From Candidatus Woesearchaeota archaeon (GTDB taxonomy: Archaea > Nanoarchaeota > Nanoarchaeia > Woesearchaeales > GW2011-AR4): DNA of 27,354 nucleotides. The translations under genes and the position numbers were made by a program. Shown here in pieces: positions 1,206 through 19,599 of this stretch. How positions within the stretch are numbered: position 1 is the stretch's first letter; each line of letters starts with the position of its first letter. The notes beneath the pieces were generated by a model, which was not told the DNA's origin, searched no databases, and was given only the letters and a program-made list of their open reading frames with translations. Location: the NCBI GenBank assembly GCA_023259315.1, contig JAHFQL010000002.1, positions 4,058 to 31,411 of the forward strand, written 5' to 3'.

Positions 1206-1739
1206 TTGTTTAATAAAGTTTCGTTTTTGGGGGCTGTGTGTAAGAATGACAGCTTATGGAGTGGAATGGGTGCTCCTCCAGCCAAACTTTATGATGTGCT
1301 TATGAATTTAAGCATAAAGCAGTATTTTGGCAGAAGCTTGAGAAGAAGCATGGGATTAATTCGTTTGATGAAGAAATCTTTTAAGATTTCTTTCAGAGTA
1401 CTATGCTTCAAAACTTTAGACAATTATCTGAATAATCCTTATTTAAAGAAATATCTTGATAAGCTAACAACCTATACCTCAAATCCTTTGAGGTTTTTGG
1501 AAAAAAATTTTGCAACCGACAAAACCGGTGAAAGGACGGTTACGAGGTCAAGCTGGTATAGTATAAGATGCAATAAAGAAATCAAAAAGAGAGACCACAT
1601 TAACGTCCATATAACCACAGGATGCGAATTGCATTCTGTTACATCAGTGGATGTTCTTGTTGAAAAAGGAAAGGATAATATTATTTTTAGAAATCATGTT
1701 AAAGCGCTAGAGAAAGAGGGTTACAACATAAATTTATGA
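1206..1739 (+). pseudogene. DDE transposase fragment (IS4/IS5-like), 3' part missing
   Basis: The 177-residue frame matches the layout of a DDE transposase N-terminal half. It has a helical segment (PPAKLYDVLMNLSIKQYFG), an N-L-N-x-P like segment (LDNYLNNPYLKKYLDKL), then FATDKTG, which carries the first catalytic aspartate, and a Trp/Arg-rich strand. HINVHITTGCELHSVTSVDV is the usual region after it. The frame stops at GYNINL, before the second Asp and the Glu of the catalytic triad, exactly where an IS200/IS605 fragment begins. The N-terminus (about residues 1-25) does not look like the family and may be extra sequence. I call it a dead remnant. The family is recognised from pattern only, so the IS group is uncertain. 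Confidence 0.72.
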
Positions 1740-2029
1740 ATTATCTTGAAAGGGATTATTGTTGGATTTGCGCCTACAAACAAGTGCATGTGGTCTGGCA
1801 TTATTTCCAGTGCAAGATTATTCAAACTCAATTCTTGGCATTGTCCGTCAATAATTGTTTTTAGAAATTCCCTTACTTTGCCTACCAAAATCGGCTTCCT
1901 GTACTTCGGAATCCAAATAATATGGTAGTTGATGTTGTACTTGCAGTGATGAGATGTTCTCACCGTTGCTATTTTACTTTCTATTTTATACACTTCTGGA
2001 TTGAAGTGTGGATATTTGTTTTTAGTCAT
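1721..2029 (-). pseudogene. tnpA: IS200/IS605 transposase TnpA, lacks the catalytic tyrosine
   Basis: This is the Y1 HUH single-strand transposase. Visible family features are HHCKYNINYHIIWIPKYR near the N-terminus and EIMPDHMHLFV, whose H-M-H is the HUH metal-binding motif. The protein ends shortly after PFKIIH with KFML, so the C-terminal helix carrying the nucleophilic tyrosine is gone and the enzyme cannot cleave DNA. The start is set at the ATG at 2029 because AGGTGG lies 5 bases upstream. An upstream in-frame ATG at 2098 would add 23 unrelated residues. No tnpB is present nearby. Confidence 0.85.
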
Positions 2030-2033
2030 TGCG

Positions 2034-2055
2034 ACCACCTCATTGTAAAGGTGGT
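2034..2055 (-). promoter_or_regulatory. Hairpin that can hide the tnpA ribosome binding site
   Basis: On the minus strand ACCACCT and AGGTGGT form a perfect 7-bp stem with an 8-base loop. The 3' arm is the Shine-Dalgarno sequence of tnpA, 4-5 bases from its ATG. Sequestration of the RBS by a 5' hairpin is known for IS200-type tnpA. Confidence 0.7.
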
Positions 2056-2167
2056 TGCTTGTATTGTTAGGGTGTTTCTCGTTTAGCGAACCATACATTA
2101 AACTTTTAGCTGATAAGCGACCTCGAAGAGGGAAAGGTTTAAGTTAAATGGTTTGCGTGAGAAACCC

Positions 2168-2181
2168 CCAGCTTTAGCTGG
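2168..2181 (-). repeat. Subterminal hairpin of the IS200/IS605 left end
   Basis: CCAGCT-TT-AGCTGG is a perfect 6-bp palindromic stem about 140 bases upstream of the tnpA start. IS200/IS605 ends carry such imperfect or perfect hairpins, which TnpA recognises instead of terminal inverted repeats. Confidence 0.6.
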
Positions 2182-2300
2182 ATTTATTTTGGGAGAATGT
2201 CATTTTGTTGCTATTGCAAAAATTTTTTAATGCTTCAATTATTTTTTCCCTTCTGTCCAGTCTAATTAAATAAGTGCCATTTATTTTCCTGGATTTCATC

Positions 2301-3229: not shown

Positions 3230-4636
3230 ATGAGAAAGACAATTTCAATGGCAATTATTGCAATGTTTTTAGTCAGCATCATACCATTTGTTTTTGCTGA
3301 AAGGCTTTTAGATTCCAAATTAGGAATAAGAGCAGAATCAAGAGATGGGAATGATTCTGCCAAAGTTGAAGCAAGAGACGAAATAAAGCTCAGAAATAAT
3401 GAAGCAAGGGCCGAACTGAAAGAAGAATATAGGGGTAAATTAAATATTTTAAGGGAAAATTACAGGGCCAAAATAGAGGCTTTGGGAGAGGAAAAAGCAA
3501 AAATGTTTGCAAACCTAAGCAGTGACAGGCTGCAGAAAATTGCAAAGCTTGACAAAAAACAGATAGAAAGGCTTGCAAAACTAAACGTAAAAAATCTCTA
3601 TAAGATAGCTGAATTGAAAGCAGACAGGCTTGAAAGGCTCACAGAGCTCGAAGAAAACAAACTGGAAAGAATTTCTGAATTGAATCAATCTGATATAGAA
3701 AAAATCTCTGATTTGAACAGGGCAAGAATAAAAGAGCTTGCAAAGATGAACAATGCGGAATTAAAGGAAGAGTTGAAGGCCATCCATTTTGTCAAAGTTA
3801 AGAATGCAGACGAGCTTAACCAAAGGAACTTAACACAGGCTAACCTAACTCAATTAAGGGAAAGATTTGAGAATGCAAAGCAGGAATTTAAAGACGCTAA
3901 AGAAGAGCTTGAAGTAACAAGAAAAGCACTTAAGGAAGCAAGAGACAAAGGAGATGAGAAAGGTTCTATAGAACATGCGAAGGACTATCTGTCAAAAGTG
4001 GCAGACGCTTTGATTTTACATCTTGAAAAAATAAAGGCAAAAGTACAGGAAAATAAGAACATAGGCAACGAAACAGAAGCAAAGATTGTTGCTGACATTG
4101 ACACGCAGATTTCAGAAATAAATCAAATAAAAGCCCATGTGCAGGCTGCAACTACAAAGGAACAAGTAAAGGAAGCAGCAAAGGAATTAAAGAAAAAATG
4201 GAATAGTCTCAAGCACTTGATTGATTTGTATTCCAAAAGAGTTGTGGCTGCAAGAGTTGAAGGAATTGTCCACAGGGGTTTAGTCCTTGAGAAGCAGCTT
4301 GACCACGTACTTGAAAAAGCAAAAGAGAAGGGCATTGAAGTGAATGCAACTGCAGAGATTAGCAATTTCAGCCAAGAGATTGCGAATTCAAAGGAAAAAT
4401 ATCTGGCAGCACAGGCCAAGATATCAGAAGCTTTTGATTTAAGGGCAAAAAATGAATCGGCCAATAGCGAGAAAATAAAATCATTGCTGGATGAAGTTAA
4501 CCAGTTGCTGAAAGAGTCAAGAGATTCGCTGAAACATGCCCACGAGACACTAAAGGCTATAGTGAAAATAATAAAAACAGCCATGCCCGAAGCTGACTTA
4601 TCAGCTGAGGCAGAAATTGAAGTAGAATCAGACTAG
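3230..4636 (+). CDS. Secreted coiled-coil protein with 11-residue repeats
   Basis: The 468-residue protein starts with a signal peptide (residues 1-23, ending FVFA) and is then almost entirely charged and helical. Residues 101-177 hold seven tandem 11-residue units such as IERLAKLNVKN, LERLTELEENK and IEKISDLNRAR. This hendecad period predicts a right-handed coiled coil. The rest, about residues 190-455, is Lys/Glu/Ala-rich helix without cysteines and ends in an acidic tail (EAEIEVESD). There is no transmembrane helix after the signal, so it is probably released or bound to the cell surface. Promoter and Shine-Dalgarno both fit the start. I do not recognise a named family; a structural surface role is only an inference. 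Confidence 0.85.
   Translation: MRKTISMAIIAMFLVSIIPFVFAERLLDSKLGIRAESRDGNDSAKVEARDEIKLRNNEARAELKEEYRGKLNILRENYRAKIEALGEEKAKMFANLSSDRLQKIAKLDKKQIERLAKLNVKNLYKIAELKADRLERLTELEENKLERISELNQSDIEKISDLNRARIKELAKMNNAELKEELKAIHFVKVKNADELNQRNLTQANLTQLRERFENAKQEFKDAKEELEVTRKALKEARDKGDEKGSIEHAKDYLSKVADALILHLEKIKAKVQENKNIGNETEAKIVADIDTQISEINQIKAHVQAATTKEQVKEAAKELKKKWNSLKHLIDLYSKRVVAARVEGIVHRGLVLEKQLDHVLEKAKEKGIEVNATAEISNFSQEIANSKEKYLAAQAKISEAFDLRAKNESANSEKIKSLLDEVNQLLKESRDSLKHAHETLKAIVKIIKTAMPEADLSAEAEIEVESD
3530..3760 (+). repeat. Seven 33-bp units encoding hendecad coiled-coil repeats
   Basis: Seven consecutive 11-codon units cover residues 101-177. Each begins with Leu or Ile and has a second hydrophobic pair near positions 4 and 7. 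The DNA copies are diverged, so the period is preserved at protein level. Confidence 0.8.
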
Positions 4637-5077: not shown

Positions 5078-6178
5078 ATGATAAAAATTGACGGCTCGTA
5101 CCTTGAAGGCGGTGGTCAGATAATGAGAACAGCTCTAGCTCTCTCTACAATCACGCAGAAGGCTTTTGAAATTGAAAACATCAGGAAGAACCGCCCAAAT
5201 TCCGGATTGAAAAACCAGCATCTTTATTGCGTCAAAGCCCTTAAAGAGCTATGCAATGCTGTTTCTGAAGGTGACGAGCTAGGTTCTGTATTCCTGAAAT
5301 ACTTTCCAAAAGAATTAATTGCTAAAAATCTTAATGTTGATGTCGAGACAGCCGGTTCCATAACACTCCTGCTTCAAGCTTTATTGCTGCCTTCAATGTT
5401 TGTAAGCAAGCCAATCACCATCACAATAATCGGTGGTACAGACACAAAATGGAGCCAGCCTTTCGATTATTTCAATAATATACTGCTCCCGCAATTGCAA
5501 AGATTTGCCAAAATAGAAGCAAAATTGCTGAAGAGGGGCTATTACCCAAAGGGAAATGGCAAAGTCGAAATAAAAATAAACCCAAAATTTAAGATTAACA
5601 ATTTTTCCAGTTTTGAGGAATTTCATCAGCATTTAAAAGAGAATGTGCACAAGTATGATTTAGCTGAACAGCATAACTTAATACAAATAAAGGGAATTTC
5701 GCATGCATCAAGAGATTTAGAAAATGCAAGAGTTGCTGAAAGGCAAGCCCATTCAGCTCAAAGCTTCTTGGCTAGAAACTTTAATGTCCCTATAAAAATT
5801 TCATCAGAATATCAGGAAACTTTATCTGTTGGGTCTGGCATCACTTTATGGGCAATTTTTTCAAAAAACAAAAACGATATAGATGAGAACAATCCCATCA
5901 GAATAGGCTCTGATTCATTGGGCGAGCAGGGAAAAAAGGCAGAAATTGTTGGACAAGAAGCAGCTCACAGATTAATCAAGCAGATTGAAAGCAAAGCCCC
6001 AGTTGACAAATACTTGGCAGACCAGATACTCCCATTTATGGCCTTGGCTGGAAATTCTAAAATAAAGGTTTCTGAAATGACAAATCATTGTAATACAAAT
6101 ATATACACACTAGAACAATTTTTAGGCAAGGTTTTTGAAGTTGATGAGAAAAATAAAATAATATCGACAATTAACTGA
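5078..6178 (+). CDS. rtcA: RNA 3'-terminal phosphate cyclase
   Basis: RtcA converts RNA 3'-phosphate ends to 2',3'-cyclic phosphates through an enzyme-AMP intermediate. The hallmark N-terminus is present (IDGSYLEGGGQIMRTALALS), followed by RPNSGLKNQHL, the central GGTDTKWSQPFDYF and RGYYPKGNGKV. The C-terminal TNHCNTNIYTLEQFL holds His337, at the place of the adenylated catalytic histidine. At 366 residues it is slightly longer than typical members (about 340), mostly in the insert region around residues 180-210. The start is supported by the TATA box. In archaea the enzyme is linked to RNA repair or tRNA-type end processing; no ligase gene is adjacent here. Confidence 0.96.
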   Translation: MIKIDGSYLEGGGQIMRTALALSTITQKAFEIENIRKNRPNSGLKNQHLYCVKALKELCNAVSEGDELGSVFLKYFPKELIAKNLNVDVETAGSITLLLQALLLPSMFVSKPITITIIGGTDTKWSQPFDYFNNILLPQLQRFAKIEAKLLKRGYYPKGNGKVEIKINPKFKINNFSSFEEFHQHLKENVHKYDLAEQHNLIQIKGISHASRDLENARVAERQAHSAQSFLARNFNVPIKISSEYQETLSVGSGITLWAIFSKNKNDIDENNPIRIGSDSLGEQGKKAEIVGQEAAHRLIKQIESKAPVDKYLADQILPFMALAGNSKIKVSEMTNHCNTNIYTLEQFLGKVFEVDEKNKIISTIN

Positions 6179-6467: not shown

Positions 6468-6746
6468 ATGGCTCAAGTGGTTGTAACTTTAAGGATTATG
6501 CCAAACGACACTTCTATCGACCTGTCCGGTCTTGAGTCCAAGGCAAAAGAGGAAATTGTTCATTTTTGCAATTCAAGGGAATTCAAAACAACCATAGAGC
6601 CAATTGCCTTCGGATTGAAAGCGTTGAACATAATATTCGTAATGGATGAAAGCAAAGGCAGCACTGAAAAACTTGAGGAAAAGATAAAGCTTATTGACGG
6701 CGTTGAGTCAGTTGAGGTAACAGATGTAAGAAGGGCGATTGGCTAG
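6468..6746 (+). CDS. Translation elongation factor 1 beta (archaeal)
   Basis: aEF-1 beta is the nucleotide exchange factor for aEF-1 alpha. The 92-residue protein starts MAQVVVTLRIMP, contains the IEPIAFGLKALNIIFVMDE core and ends with GVESVEVTDVRRAIG, all typical. I start at the ATG at 6468 rather than the in-frame ATG at 6450, because the latter would lie inside the Zn-ribbon gene and add MKVLTN, which family members lack. GAAGGT at 6452-6457 can serve as Shine-Dalgarno. Its stop overlaps the stop of the convergent lipoprotein gene. Confidence 0.94.
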   Translation: MAQVVVTLRIMPNDTSIDLSGLESKAKEEIVHFCNSREFKTTIEPIAFGLKALNIIFVMDESKGSTEKLEEKIKLIDGVESVEVTDVRRAIG

Positions 6747-7774
6747 CTAAACAATACCCAGTATAATTCGCTGGGAGAAATTTCCCATTTTCCACCAATC
6801 GCAGCATAAGCCCCATTTGTTGTCTTGACGCAGAGAGTTTGGCCTGAATACAAATTGGCTATTGTATCCTGTGCATTCATGCAATCTTCTTTTTTGATAT
6901 CTTTTATTTGCTTGTCCAAAACCTTCATTGTTGCAGGGCTGTATGCGGTGAAATAAAGGTAAATATTGTAGTTTGAAGAAAAAACATCAGGCGATGCCGA
7001 AGCAGTGCCTGTAAACATTGCATTCTTGAAGTCATAATACGTTATAAATCTGCTGCTTATGTTAACTTTGTTTAAATTTGAAGATGCTGCTGATGTTGAA
7101 TTATCGGTCTTTTTTTCAATTGGTTTGTTCTCTTCTGTTGGTTTGGGAGTGGGAACTGGCGTTCGCGAAGAACAAGCTTTTACAACTTGAGTGCAGTTTT
7201 TAAGATATGTTGCACACTTCTGTTCGGATTCCTTTTTAGCTTTCTCGGAAGCAAAAACACCGTAGCCAATACAAAAATCAATATGCTTACCATTTTCATC
7301 AAAAATCTCTGTAGCGGCATCAGATATAAAACCGGTTGGATAGGTCGAGTAGAAACTACCACACTTATTAACATAAACTTCGGTTGTCTCTTGCCCACAA
7401 ATCTTATTCAATATCACGTCCTGGGAAGGCTTTGCTACTTCCATTTCCGATAATCTCGCGCTTACCTCTTCAGTTGTGCCAACTTTCAAGGTGATTGTCT
7501 TTTTAAAATCTCCATATCCTTCTTTTTTAACCAATACGTCATGCTGGCCAACAGGAAAATTGTATATTGTCAAAGGGCTTTCTCCTTTCAGTTCATTATC
7601 AACATAAACTTGTGCTGATTTTGGTGAAGATTCAACAACAATAACTCCAGTGTCGACAAATTCTTCAGTTGTTTGATTTGCTTGCTCTTTAACTTCTGTT
7701 TTCGAGCATCCAATAACGATTAGAACAATAAAAAACGAAAAAATCAGTTTTATAATAATATTTCTGTAATCCAT
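6743..7774 (-). CDS. PEGA-domain lipoprotein
   Basis: The 343-residue protein has a lipoprotein signal (FIVLIVIGC, Cys23). A PEGA domain covers about residues 43-109 (GVIVVESSPKSAQVYVDNEL, SPLTIYNFPVGQHDVLVKK, GYGDFKKTITL). Family members of this fold are usually extracellular and associated with the cell wall or surface layer. The second half is unrecognised: a Cys-containing region (about 126-205) with a CAxYLKNC segment, a Pro/Thr/Lys linker, and a C-terminal domain with Tyr-rich strands. A minus-strand TATA-like sequence near 7797-7806 fits the ATG at 7774. The gene ends with a stop codon interlocked with that of EF-1 beta. Confidence 0.82.
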   Translation of the reverse strand: MDYRNIIIKLIFSFFIVLIVIGCSKTEVKEQANQTTEEFVDTGVIVVESSPKSAQVYVDNELKGESPLTIYNFPVGQHDVLVKKEGYGDFKKTITLKVGTTEEVSARLSEMEVAKPSQDVILNKICGQETTEVYVNKCGSFYSTYPTGFISDAATEIFDENGKHIDFCIGYGVFASEKAKKESEQKCATYLKNCTQVVKACSSRTPVPTPKPTEENKPIEKKTDNSTSAASSNLNKVNISSRFITYYDFKNAMFTGTASASPDVFSSNYNIYLYFTAYSPATMKVLDKQIKDIKKEDCMNAQDTIANLYSGQTLCVKTTNGAYAAIGGKWEISPSELYWVLFS

Positions 7775-17558: not shown

Positions 17559-18415
17559 TTATAAAATCGTAGGGCGAATATTCACTGATTTATCTGTGGG
17601 ATGAAGCCCGCCTCCTTCTAGTGTTTGTGATGGAGGCAGAAGAATTTTTTTCATCGTTTTAAGATATCTGTTAATTTCTTTTGTAGAAATCTCGTTAGCA
17701 AAATCCTTTGCAAATTCAGCTGTAATTTTCCTTCTTAGTTTGTAGGTATTTGCGTTTTTAGCGTATACTATCCAGCCCTCTAGAAAATCATAAATTGAGT
17801 CATAATCATCTTCGCACAATTTGTATTCCTGTCCTAATGCCTTTAATTTTTGCTTCATCTTCCTGATGTTTGACTTCTTAAGCAGTTTATGATAATAGAA
17901 AACGCGAAAGCCGAGAAAATTGATAGTATGTCCTAATCTTAAAATCTTAGATTTATCTTGATGAAGCTGAATCTTTAATTTGCTCTTCAACAACGCATTA
18001 ATCTCCTCTTTATAAAATGCCAGTTTTTGCTTATCGGATTCAAAGATTACAAAATCATCAACATATCGAATGTAATATTTTGCTTTCAGTTTGGTTTTTA
18101 CAAACCAGTCAAAATCATTGAGATAAATCTTTTTTCAAAAATAGGCTCGATTATATTACAAAGAGCATGATGCACGACCCTGTCCCTAAAATCAGACTTT
18201 GATATTTTTCTTGTCTTTGGGTCGTGGATTGTGAAATTCACCAATGGCTTTGGGCTGTAACAATGCAATAGAAGCTCTGAGCGAAGCAAAAGCAGATTTT
18301 CTTTGAGATTCTTCTCAAAATCCATAACATAAGGTTTTGTTGTCTTGTGCTTTCTTGCTTTTTTGTAAGCAAGAAAAAGATTGTCATAAGAGCATATCAC
18401 ACCATACAAATCCAT
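17559..18415 (-). pseudogene. DGR-type reverse transcriptase, internally deleted and frameshifted
   Basis: The N-terminal piece (97 residues, ATG at 18415) reads MDLYGVICSYDNLFLAYKKA, LLLHCYSPKPLVNFTIHDP, and SDFRDRVVHHALCNIIEPIF ending in FEKRFI. In another frame the C-terminal piece (about 188 residues) starts YLNDFDWFVKTKLKAKYYIR and has YVDD (18054-18065), FLGFRVFYYHKLLKKSN and FLEGWIVYAKNANTY. These are the flanks of a DGR-type RT. The part between them, which holds the first catalytic Asp and the region before the YLNDFD helix (roughly 100-130 residues by family comparison), is missing. The join is at about 18124 and also changes frame, so the first piece ends at 18098. The copy cannot be active as read. 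Its position after a template repeat identifies the DGR. Confidence 0.9.
17610..17637. repeat. 6-bp stem near the 3' end of the RT remnant
   Basis: GCCTCC (17610-17615) pairs with GGAGGC (17632-17637). On the minus strand it is followed by a second imperfect stem (CAC-A-GAT-AA-ATC-A-GTG) near 17585-17602. The pair resembles terminal hairpins of IS200/IS605 elements, but no transposase is next to it. Confidence 0.35.
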
Positions 18416-18455
18416 GATCAGTGTCAATAATAAAAATTCTCGACAAAAGACCATT

Positions 18456-18537
18456 CCGAAAGCGCCATTGTTGTTGTCAAGATTCCTGTTGTTGCCATTA
18501 ACATTGAAGTCGTTGACAGGGCCAAAGACCCGCAACC
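18456..18537 (-). repeat. DGR template repeat (TR)
   Basis: The 82-bp segment is nearly identical to the variable repeat at 18804-18888. On the minus strand it starts GGTTGCGGGTCTTTGGCC and ends GGCGCTTTCGG; both flanks contain no adenine. The 48 bases between hold 21 adenines, arranged as AAC, AAT and GAC codons, the classic design for adenine-directed mutagenesis. It lies between the target gene and the RT, as in canonical DGRs, and ends about 40 bases before the RT start codon. Confidence 0.93.
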
Positions 18538-18745
18538 CAAGCGCTAGCCACTTTACTTAATTATCACCGCAGGTTCAGCCGTATAACCCTAGGGCTATGT
18601 GTCCCTGCTGAATTTCATAGCTTCCAATTGAAAGCCTTAGTAAAATGGCGTGTGGCCTTTAAACCATTACTCATGGCTGTCGAGGCAAAAATAAAACAAG
18701 AAAAAGAATATTTAATGGTTTCTACTTTTTCGCGCCGGTAGCTGG
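18538..18745 (-). other. Noncoding DGR segment between target gene and TR
   Basis: The 208-bp stretch has no credible gene. No frame long enough for an accessory Avd protein (usually about 120 residues) is present; the longest ATG frame is 19 codons. It contains a hairpin at 18620-18635 (GCTTTC-AATT-GGAAGC with one G-T pair on the minus strand). DGR template RNAs usually extend upstream of the TR and are structured, so this may be the 5' part of that RNA. Confidence 0.5.
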
Positions 18746-19480
18746 CTAGCGAGACTCACCGAGCTCGCCTCGCATGTCACTGGCAGTTTTTTCAAAACGC
18801 ACCCCGAAAGCGCCAAAGCCGTAGTAGCCAAGATTCCTGCTACTGCCATCAACAACGAAGACGCCGACAGGGCCAAAGACCCGCAACCTATTCGTGTATG
18901 AGCTTTTTTGAGATTTAGAATGATCCTTCAAATCAAAAAACATTGATTGGCTGTTTTTTCCTTGTTCGCTTAGCCAATTGCCATAATCCTGCGCTCTAAT
19001 TCCTAGTCTTTCGTCAGAAAACAGTTTGGATGTTAATTCAGTTTGTCCAAAATCTGCAGTGTTTATTTTCGATTCTCCATGGTTTGCAACAACTGCAGTG
19101 CCATTTTTAAGCATTTCATCAACCACTGCATAAACCAATTCTCTTTGATTTTCAGGAATAACATATTCTTGGCCTTTTTTATGGGCTGCGACTAAATTAG
19201 CTATGCCGACTAACTTGCTTATAGCTCCTTCTGGGACTATGAAAACCTGATTGTTTCTATCATCATAAAGAATATCAGCATTTGTCCTGCTATAAGGCTT
19301 AAATGTACCCTTGCTTTCTTGTGCTCGAAGAAAACCAAGCTGCGCTGGAGAAACTATGCTAAGATTGTTAAGTGAAAAAGCCGCTTCCTGAACATCTAAT
19401 GGCGCTTCTTTGCGGCCGTAAGCAACAATATATAATCCTGCTTGCGTTCTATTAACTTGCATTTCCAAATTATGACTCAT
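18746..19480 (-). CDS. DGR target protein with C-terminal variable region
   Basis: The 244-residue protein carries the variable repeat at residues 198-226 (RVFGPVGVFVVDG, SSRNLGYYGFGAFGVRFEKTA). The position near the C-terminus and the GFGAFGVRF ending are typical of DGR targets with a C-type-lectin-like fold, although the fold is an inference here. Residues 1-190 are unrecognised: GLYIVAYGRKEAPLDVQEAA, a central helix AISKLVGIANLVAAHKK, and AQDYGNWLSEQGKN. There is no signal peptide or TM segment, so it looks cytoplasmic. The ATG at 19480 is chosen because GAGG lies 9 bases upstream; the in-frame TTG at 19495 is rejected. A strong TATA box precedes it. Confidence 0.9.
   Translation of the reverse strand: MSHNLEMQVNRTQAGLYIVAYGRKEAPLDVQEAAFSLNNLSIVSPAQLGFLRAQESKGTFKPYSRTNADILYDDRNNQVFIVPEGAISKLVGIANLVAAHKKGQEYVIPENQRELVYAVVDEMLKNGTAVVANHGESKINTADFGQTELTSKLFSDERLGIRAQDYGNWLSEQGKNSQSMFFDLKDHSKSQKSSYTNRLRVFGPVGVFVVDGSSRNLGYYGFGAFGVRFEKTASDMRGELGESR
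18804..18888 (-). repeat. DGR variable repeat (VR) inside the target gene
   Basis: The 85-bp segment matches the TR with changes nearly only at template adenines. TR to VR codons in order: AAC-GGC, GAC-GTC, AAT-GTT, AAT-GAT, AAC-AGT, AAC-AGC, GAC-GGC, AAC-TAC, AAC-TAC, AAT-TTT, while AGG and AAT in between are unchanged. That is 13 of 21 adenines altered, one C-to-T, and one extra GGC codon in the VR. The adenine-free GGCGCTTTCGG at its end would be the initiation-of-homing region. Confidence 0.93.
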
Positions 19481-19525
19481 TTTGTTAATCCTCAATAAAA
19501 GTGCATAAGAACAGAAAACACTTTT

Positions 19526-19535
19526 GTTTATAAAT
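19526..19535 (-). promoter_or_regulatory. TATA box of the DGR target gene
   Basis: On the minus strand ATTTATAAAC lies 46-55 bp upstream of the ATG at 19480, leaving room for a short leader with the GAGG Shine-Dalgarno. Confidence 0.6.
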
Positions 19536-19599
19536 CTTTCTATGTTTATTATTATAAAGTAGTGAAATAACTACATTAAGCACACAAAATCTTAGGGCT

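Follow-up and report, generated by a model that had tools for sequence, protein, structure and literature searches.

The 27,354-nt stretch of contig JAHFQL010000002.1 analysed here (positions 4,058 to 31,411; hereafter, the window) probably holds what is left of a diversity-generating retroelement (DGR) for which an IS200/IS605-type element of a Woesearchaeota-like archaeon served as carrier. We put the probability of this reading at roughly 0.8. All window features given below lie on the minus strand.

The template repeat (TR, 18456..18537) and the variable repeat (VR, 18804..18888) were found at the same positions as in an earlier note on this DNA, and in the gene order it had described: target gene, then TR, then reverse transcriptase (RT). 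Its limits for the cassette, 17559..19480, also hold, as the target ATG lies at 19480 and the C-terminal piece of the RT ends at 17559. The ends of both repeats are free of adenine, as it had said, judged by eye. Alignment of TR with VR, which it had proposed as a check, reproduced its counts: 13 of the 21 TR adenines are changed in the VR (8 A>G and 5 A>T), compared with 1 of the 61 other bases (C>T), and there is a single 3-nt indel (3 gap columns) that makes the VR one codon longer. No VR adenine falls at a position without a TR adenine. Substitutions confined to TR adenines define a DGR, and the bias in the window is strong (Fisher P=5.7e-9); the chance that at least 13 of 14 substitutions would fall on A is likewise 5.7e-9. 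All 11 other TR/VR pairs tested show the bias (weakest P=8.4e-5), although changes at other bases are not rare in loci L123b (5/58) and L043 (3/73), which counts against a clean adenine-only pattern. The VR is one codon longer than the TR in L023 and L024 too. The extra codon would fit slippage in AAC repeats; insertions and deletions within such repeats are mentioned for DGRs in the accessible part of one report (PMC12875486).

The target gene (18746..19480, ATG 19480) encodes a variable protein of 244 amino acids, preceded by a TATA-like element (19521..19539) that is similar in relatives and whose function we infer from sequence. The earlier note had not recognised the target. Its family, with 95 database matches including the window protein itself, is indeed uncharacterised, but the target is predicted to adopt the C-type-lectin (CLec) fold of AvpA, with a C-terminal VR. 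The AvpA DGR (PDB 5ioo; Handa et al. 2016, PMC5006420), as described in the part of that paper available to us, is alike in having this fold, here matched over 197 residues, a C-terminal VR, about a dozen variable residues encoded mostly by AAY codons, and a DPANN host. Identity between AvpA and the window target is only 13%. The same source describes Avd-like proteins for the AvpA DGR, whereas none was noticed in the window DGR, in which no open reading frame of 60 or more amino acids lies on the coding strand between target and TR. The window DGR also differs from that of AvpA in its broken RT, its IS200/IS605-type ends and the RT-16 RNA adjoining its TR.

We next consider variability across the target family. 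The hypervariable residues of the target are those whose TR codons contain adenines. In alignment A1, which omits 13 of the 95 homologues (12 of at most 224 amino acids, and P0049), mean entropy was 2.85 bits in the 11 TR-adenine columns, defined from the window TR alone, versus 1.21 bits in the 227 others (P=2.9e-7) and 0.83 bits in the 14 non-adenine VR columns (P=3.6e-5). Residues encodable by NNY made up 628 of 643 in the 8 AAY columns, versus 13056 of 16237 before residue 200. The window target differs from its nearest homologue at 9 of 11 TR-adenine residues and at 21 of 232 others. One close pair of homologues, P0022 and P0024, counts against the diversification pattern, as it differs at 0 of 12 TR-adenine residues and 4 of 227 others.

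A full-length match to the RT-16 RNA (Rfam RF03019) lies at 18539..18701 and ends 1 nt before the TR, scoring 68.3 bits (E 8.6e-9) against a gathering threshold of 50 bits. RT-16 reaches this threshold in 9 of 14 related loci. In 8 of these 9 the offset between its end and the TR start, located by repeat matches, is -2 to +3 nt; in the ninth, L044, RT-16 is present and no TR/VR pair was found. Loci in which the RNA abuts the TR are the window, L022, L023, L038, L041, L042, L062, L123 and L124. Abutting matches slightly under the threshold occur in L024 and L037, and L043 has a weak match; L025 and L125 gave neither RT-16 at threshold nor a TR. TR and RT start are 26-30 nt apart in three relatives and 40 nt apart in the window, and this short gap, together with the RT-16 RNA abutting the TR, suggests that the template RNA has its structured part on the 5' side of the TR. 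RT-16 is likely to be the 5' leader of the template RNA in these archaeal DGRs. The DGR of Bordetella phage BPP-1, according to the available part of PMC12875486, is alike in its adenine mutagenesis and in a TR that adjoins the RT, but places its structured spacer on the 3' side of the TR. Further differences are that no avd was seen 5' of the window TR, and that TR and RT start are separated by just 26-40 nt in the window and its relatives. In L024, a sub-threshold RT-11 RNA match (5995-6146) overlaps the RT-16 match, and the two Rfam families may therefore be related.

The RT gene is broken in the window. RTs of the DGR clade are marked by GNxxSQ in motif 4 and by a catalytic YxDD. In the window, an N-terminal piece (18098..18415, ATG 18415) keeps about 100 native residues before the frame is lost and matches phrog_1423 over positions 101-198 (E 9e-33), and a C-terminal piece in another frame (17559..18119), with a YVDD box at 18054-18065, matches it over 302-451 (E 1e-35). 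About 100 residues are absent between the two, with a change of frame, and no complete reading frame remains. The loss begins ahead of the first catalytic motif and extends past motif 4. In L062 and L022 the RT is intact, matches phrog_1423 without a break and carries LGNLTSQ, which is deleted in the window, where YVDD persists; the SQ dipeptide of DGR RTs is named in the portion of PMC3521204 at hand. The junction (18115..18128) has one copy of TTTATCT for the left and right contexts together, and L024 and L062 have this 7-nt word at both places, in different reading phases. Deletion between repeats, shifting the frame, is the likeliest course; L023 and L123 have RT deletions of their own. 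The earlier note had held that a grouping of the RT pieces with group II introns would speak against a DGR. By profile comparison, both pieces match the PHROG RT family with the E values above, and the NCBIfam group II maturase model scores them at 31 and 50 bits, below its cut-off of 300. The claim of an archaeal DGR stands on TR/VR, RT family, RT-16 and family hypervariability, but that of a working element does not, as the RT is broken: the window DGR does not look functional as assembled. Inactivated DGR RTs with purely A-mutations in the VR have been described, and recent loss inferred from them (Schillinger 2012, PMC3521204, as far as its accessible text goes); by the same reasoning, RT loss in the window may be recent.

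The earlier note had missed that the cassette ends in the right end (RE, 17559..17603) of an IS200/IS605-type element, and that a separate left end (LE) with a tnpA remnant is also present. This family is characterised by a Y1_Tnp transposase, imperfect subterminal hairpins, a conserved AATGAC-type left border, insertion next to a fixed short target sequence that is not duplicated, and transposition as circular single-stranded DNA. The RE, aligned with 8 other short-loop ends, has a partly degenerate hairpin, with 3 of 8 pairs broken in the window. The LE of the same IS family (2154..2204) has a hairpin and lies beside a truncated tnpA (1721..2038; Y1_Tnp E 2.3e-19, profile 2-72 of 121) that is 67-81% identical to tnpA of relatives; the catalytic tyrosine, which we take to lie in the C-terminal part of TnpA, is absent from this fragment. 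Across the aligned ends, the LE hairpin is paired in 100% of 35 cells and the RE hairpin in 90.6% of 64 cells; both partners have changed in 3 of 5 pairs of the LE and in 2 of 8 pairs of the RE. The folding z of the window LE DNA is only -1.1. Left borders read AATGAC in 7 of 9 cases and one-base variants of it in 2. LE and truncated tnpA lie 15 kb from the cassette, so that LE, tnpA and RE do not enclose it in the window. About 260 nt of tnpA are missing between the two halves, which are not exactly complementary and may therefore be independent remnants. DNA homology of the cassette to its element-borne relatives reaches upstream to 19560..19566, about where their tnpA ends. An empty insertion site was not obtained, the single other member of the genus that was compared being too distant.

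Some relatives have both ends around the cassette. In L062, L024 and L023, homology begins at the LE and ends at the RE, the neighbourhoods differ, and between the ends lie tnpA, target, TR and RT (or an RT remnant). L062 is a complete element of 3.17 kb, whose TnpA matches Y1_Tnp across the whole profile (E 3.1e-32). In the open reading frame lists of three DGR-bearing elements, the coding strand holds only tnpA, target and RT frames. L124 has the RE, with no LE or tnpA detected. These elements resemble the IS200/IS605 family in their Y1_Tnp transposase, subterminal hairpins and AATGAC-type left border, but unlike its usual members they carry target, TR and RT as passengers. Partial texts of earlier reports place transposons among DGR vehicles (Schillinger 2012, PMC3521204), call them common beside DPANN DGRs (Dore 2024, PMC10907252, citing Paul 2017) and describe IS200/IS605 transposases near cyanobacterial variable proteins (Vallota-Eastman 2020, PMC7517822). 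What these sources share with our loci is mobile elements near DGRs, and an RT inactivated while the VR shows only A-mutations. They speak, in the parts available, of proximity, Tn7-type vicinity or possible cargo, whereas in the relatives here the cassette is enclosed by the LE and RE of one IS family. A literature search, which missed the main source papers, showed no prior report of a DGR enclosed between IS200/IS605 ends among the matches listed.

Element-borne DGRs are a minority among the DGRs of the class. A DGR RT occurs in 108 of 378 class genomes (E<=1e-40), several with more than one match. By comparison, the target profile matches 14 of the 378, strongly in 3, the tnpA lineage of the window is found in 7 (E<=1e-30), and the RE in 17, with at most two candidates scored per genome. 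The RE lies directly downstream of an RT gene or remnant at a minimum of 6 loci in 4 genomes. We examined 10 of the 11 tnpA loci, leaving out one in G359. A DGR target adjoins tnpA at 5 of the 11 (twice in G194, once in G001 and twice in G124), and L059, L060, L061 (at a contig end), L064 and L065 gave no match to the DGR target or RT queries. The window also encodes an IF5B-like protein, whose identity to its counterparts in ten related genomes is 51-60%, the best being G194 and G120.

Similar LE and RE with other sequence between them, and no match to the DGR queries, were seen at L060 (4093-7212), L126 (8858-4930) and L130 (514-4969), and this IS family may take different passengers. Similar small palindromic inserts sit inside the RE hairpin loop of L023 (5342-5446) and L130 (4875-4969), and a similar insert interrupts the tnpA of L023, as if a miniature repeat targeted both.

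We propose the following history for the window. The RT would have copied an RNA holding RT-16 and the TR, misincorporating bases opposite A, and the mutated cDNA would have replaced the VR, yielding variants of a binding protein. TnpA would have moved the whole unit as single-stranded DNA between the hairpin ends. The RT would then have been killed by deletion between the two 7-nt repeats, and the half with LE and tnpA lost or separated from the cassette, which would fix the receptor in the variant that it last had, barring the action in trans of a different RT.

This history has to be weighed against readings in which the DGR still works. It could be live if the VR were diversified in trans by another RT, or if undeleted copies persisted in the population. 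The single non-adenine change between TR and VR would mean that RT loss was either recent or complemented, the G001 contig has an RT-less target as well as an intact RT with another target, and a DGR RT is present in 108 of the 378 class genomes, with multiple matches in several. The VR nevertheless retains one codon more than the TR, which slippage could explain, and we regard a live DGR as unlikely. It is very improbable that the RT gap is an assembly error in an intact element: assemblers can create false joins at short repeats, but the junction has the 7-nt word that L024 and L062 carry at each border, as in biological deletions, and L023 and L123 show other RT deletions.

The association with the transposon could also be looser, with IS200/IS605-type elements only neighbouring DGRs, as reported for cyanobacteria, without carrying them. 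Five of the 11 tnpA loci without a match to the DGR queries (one at a contig end, with 1 further locus left out) agree with this, as do the 6 loci in 4 genomes with the RE just 3' of the RT, set against 108 genomes with a DGR RT. We find it quite improbable, however, given that homology in L062, L024 and L023 runs from LE to RE with the DGR genes inside and different neighbourhoods outside. An ordinary duplication diverged by point mutation would account for two copies whose starts are 351 nt apart (+ strand), but we give it almost no credence in view of the adenine bias (P=5.7e-9), the family variability at TR-adenine codons and the adjoining RT and RT-16.

Beyond the remnant in the window, we tentatively suggest, at a little under even odds, that Woesearchaeota have self-mobile, complete DGRs in IS200/IS605-type transposons, that RTs of this lineage include contingency genes, in which slippage in tracts that evolved several times in a single tolerant linker turns hypermutation on and off, and that the template RNA begins with RT-16 as its 5' part. 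If so, receptor and diversifier would spread as a single unit, and a one-enzyme, single-stranded DNA transposon enclosing a DGR would be a concrete vehicle for the spread of DGRs among tiny, host-dependent archaea. RT-16, an Rfam family of unknown function, would gain a suggested role as leader of the template RNA. If the tracts do switch the RT, they would account for the way in which cells hold a mutator in check and retain a receptor that works well.

Among the matches listed, a number of DGR RT matches are split at a single linker, which separates motif 3 from motif 4. We compared two sets of loci: (i) 70 rank-ordered loci, comprising the first 30 and 40 of the next matches, a few of which end at contig ends; and (ii) 18 loci chosen mostly for a split RT match, so that tract frequency there is biased. 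The ranking of the first set favours intact genes and skips G292:C11, G376:C3, G082:C1, G325:C17 and three loci already included. The linker is in frame in 70 of 70, and 6 (L093, L106, L164, L165, L168 and L174) have a linker G run of at least 7 or an (AG)6 tract; runs of seven A were not counted as tracts. In the mostly split set, 12 of 18 loci have a linker tract, and all 12 are off frame (L135-L144, L148 and L152). L145 and L150 give off-frame rows without a tract, and both also pair in frame; three more are in frame without a tract, and no linker was found in one. Further linker tracts are off frame in L024 (~6815-6841), L038 (~6734-6760) and L124, and in frame in L041.

Counting as long tracts G or C runs of at least 8 and dinucleotide repeats of at least 6 units, we found 7 across all the DNA of the 70 loci, including 3 in the linker; 100 shuffles gave 0.34 on average and never more than 3. 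The repeat unit varies (G, C, AG, CT), and this suggests that the tracts arose more than once. Linker tracts that are often off frame suggest phase variation of DGR RTs by slippage. No report of DGR phase variation or repeat-tract switching was found in the titles and abstract openings of the literature matches listed. In the window RT, the linker segment is deleted. Poly-G or poly-C tracts also occur elsewhere in RT genes, in L179 and L185 (~350 nt after motif 4), L147 and L113.
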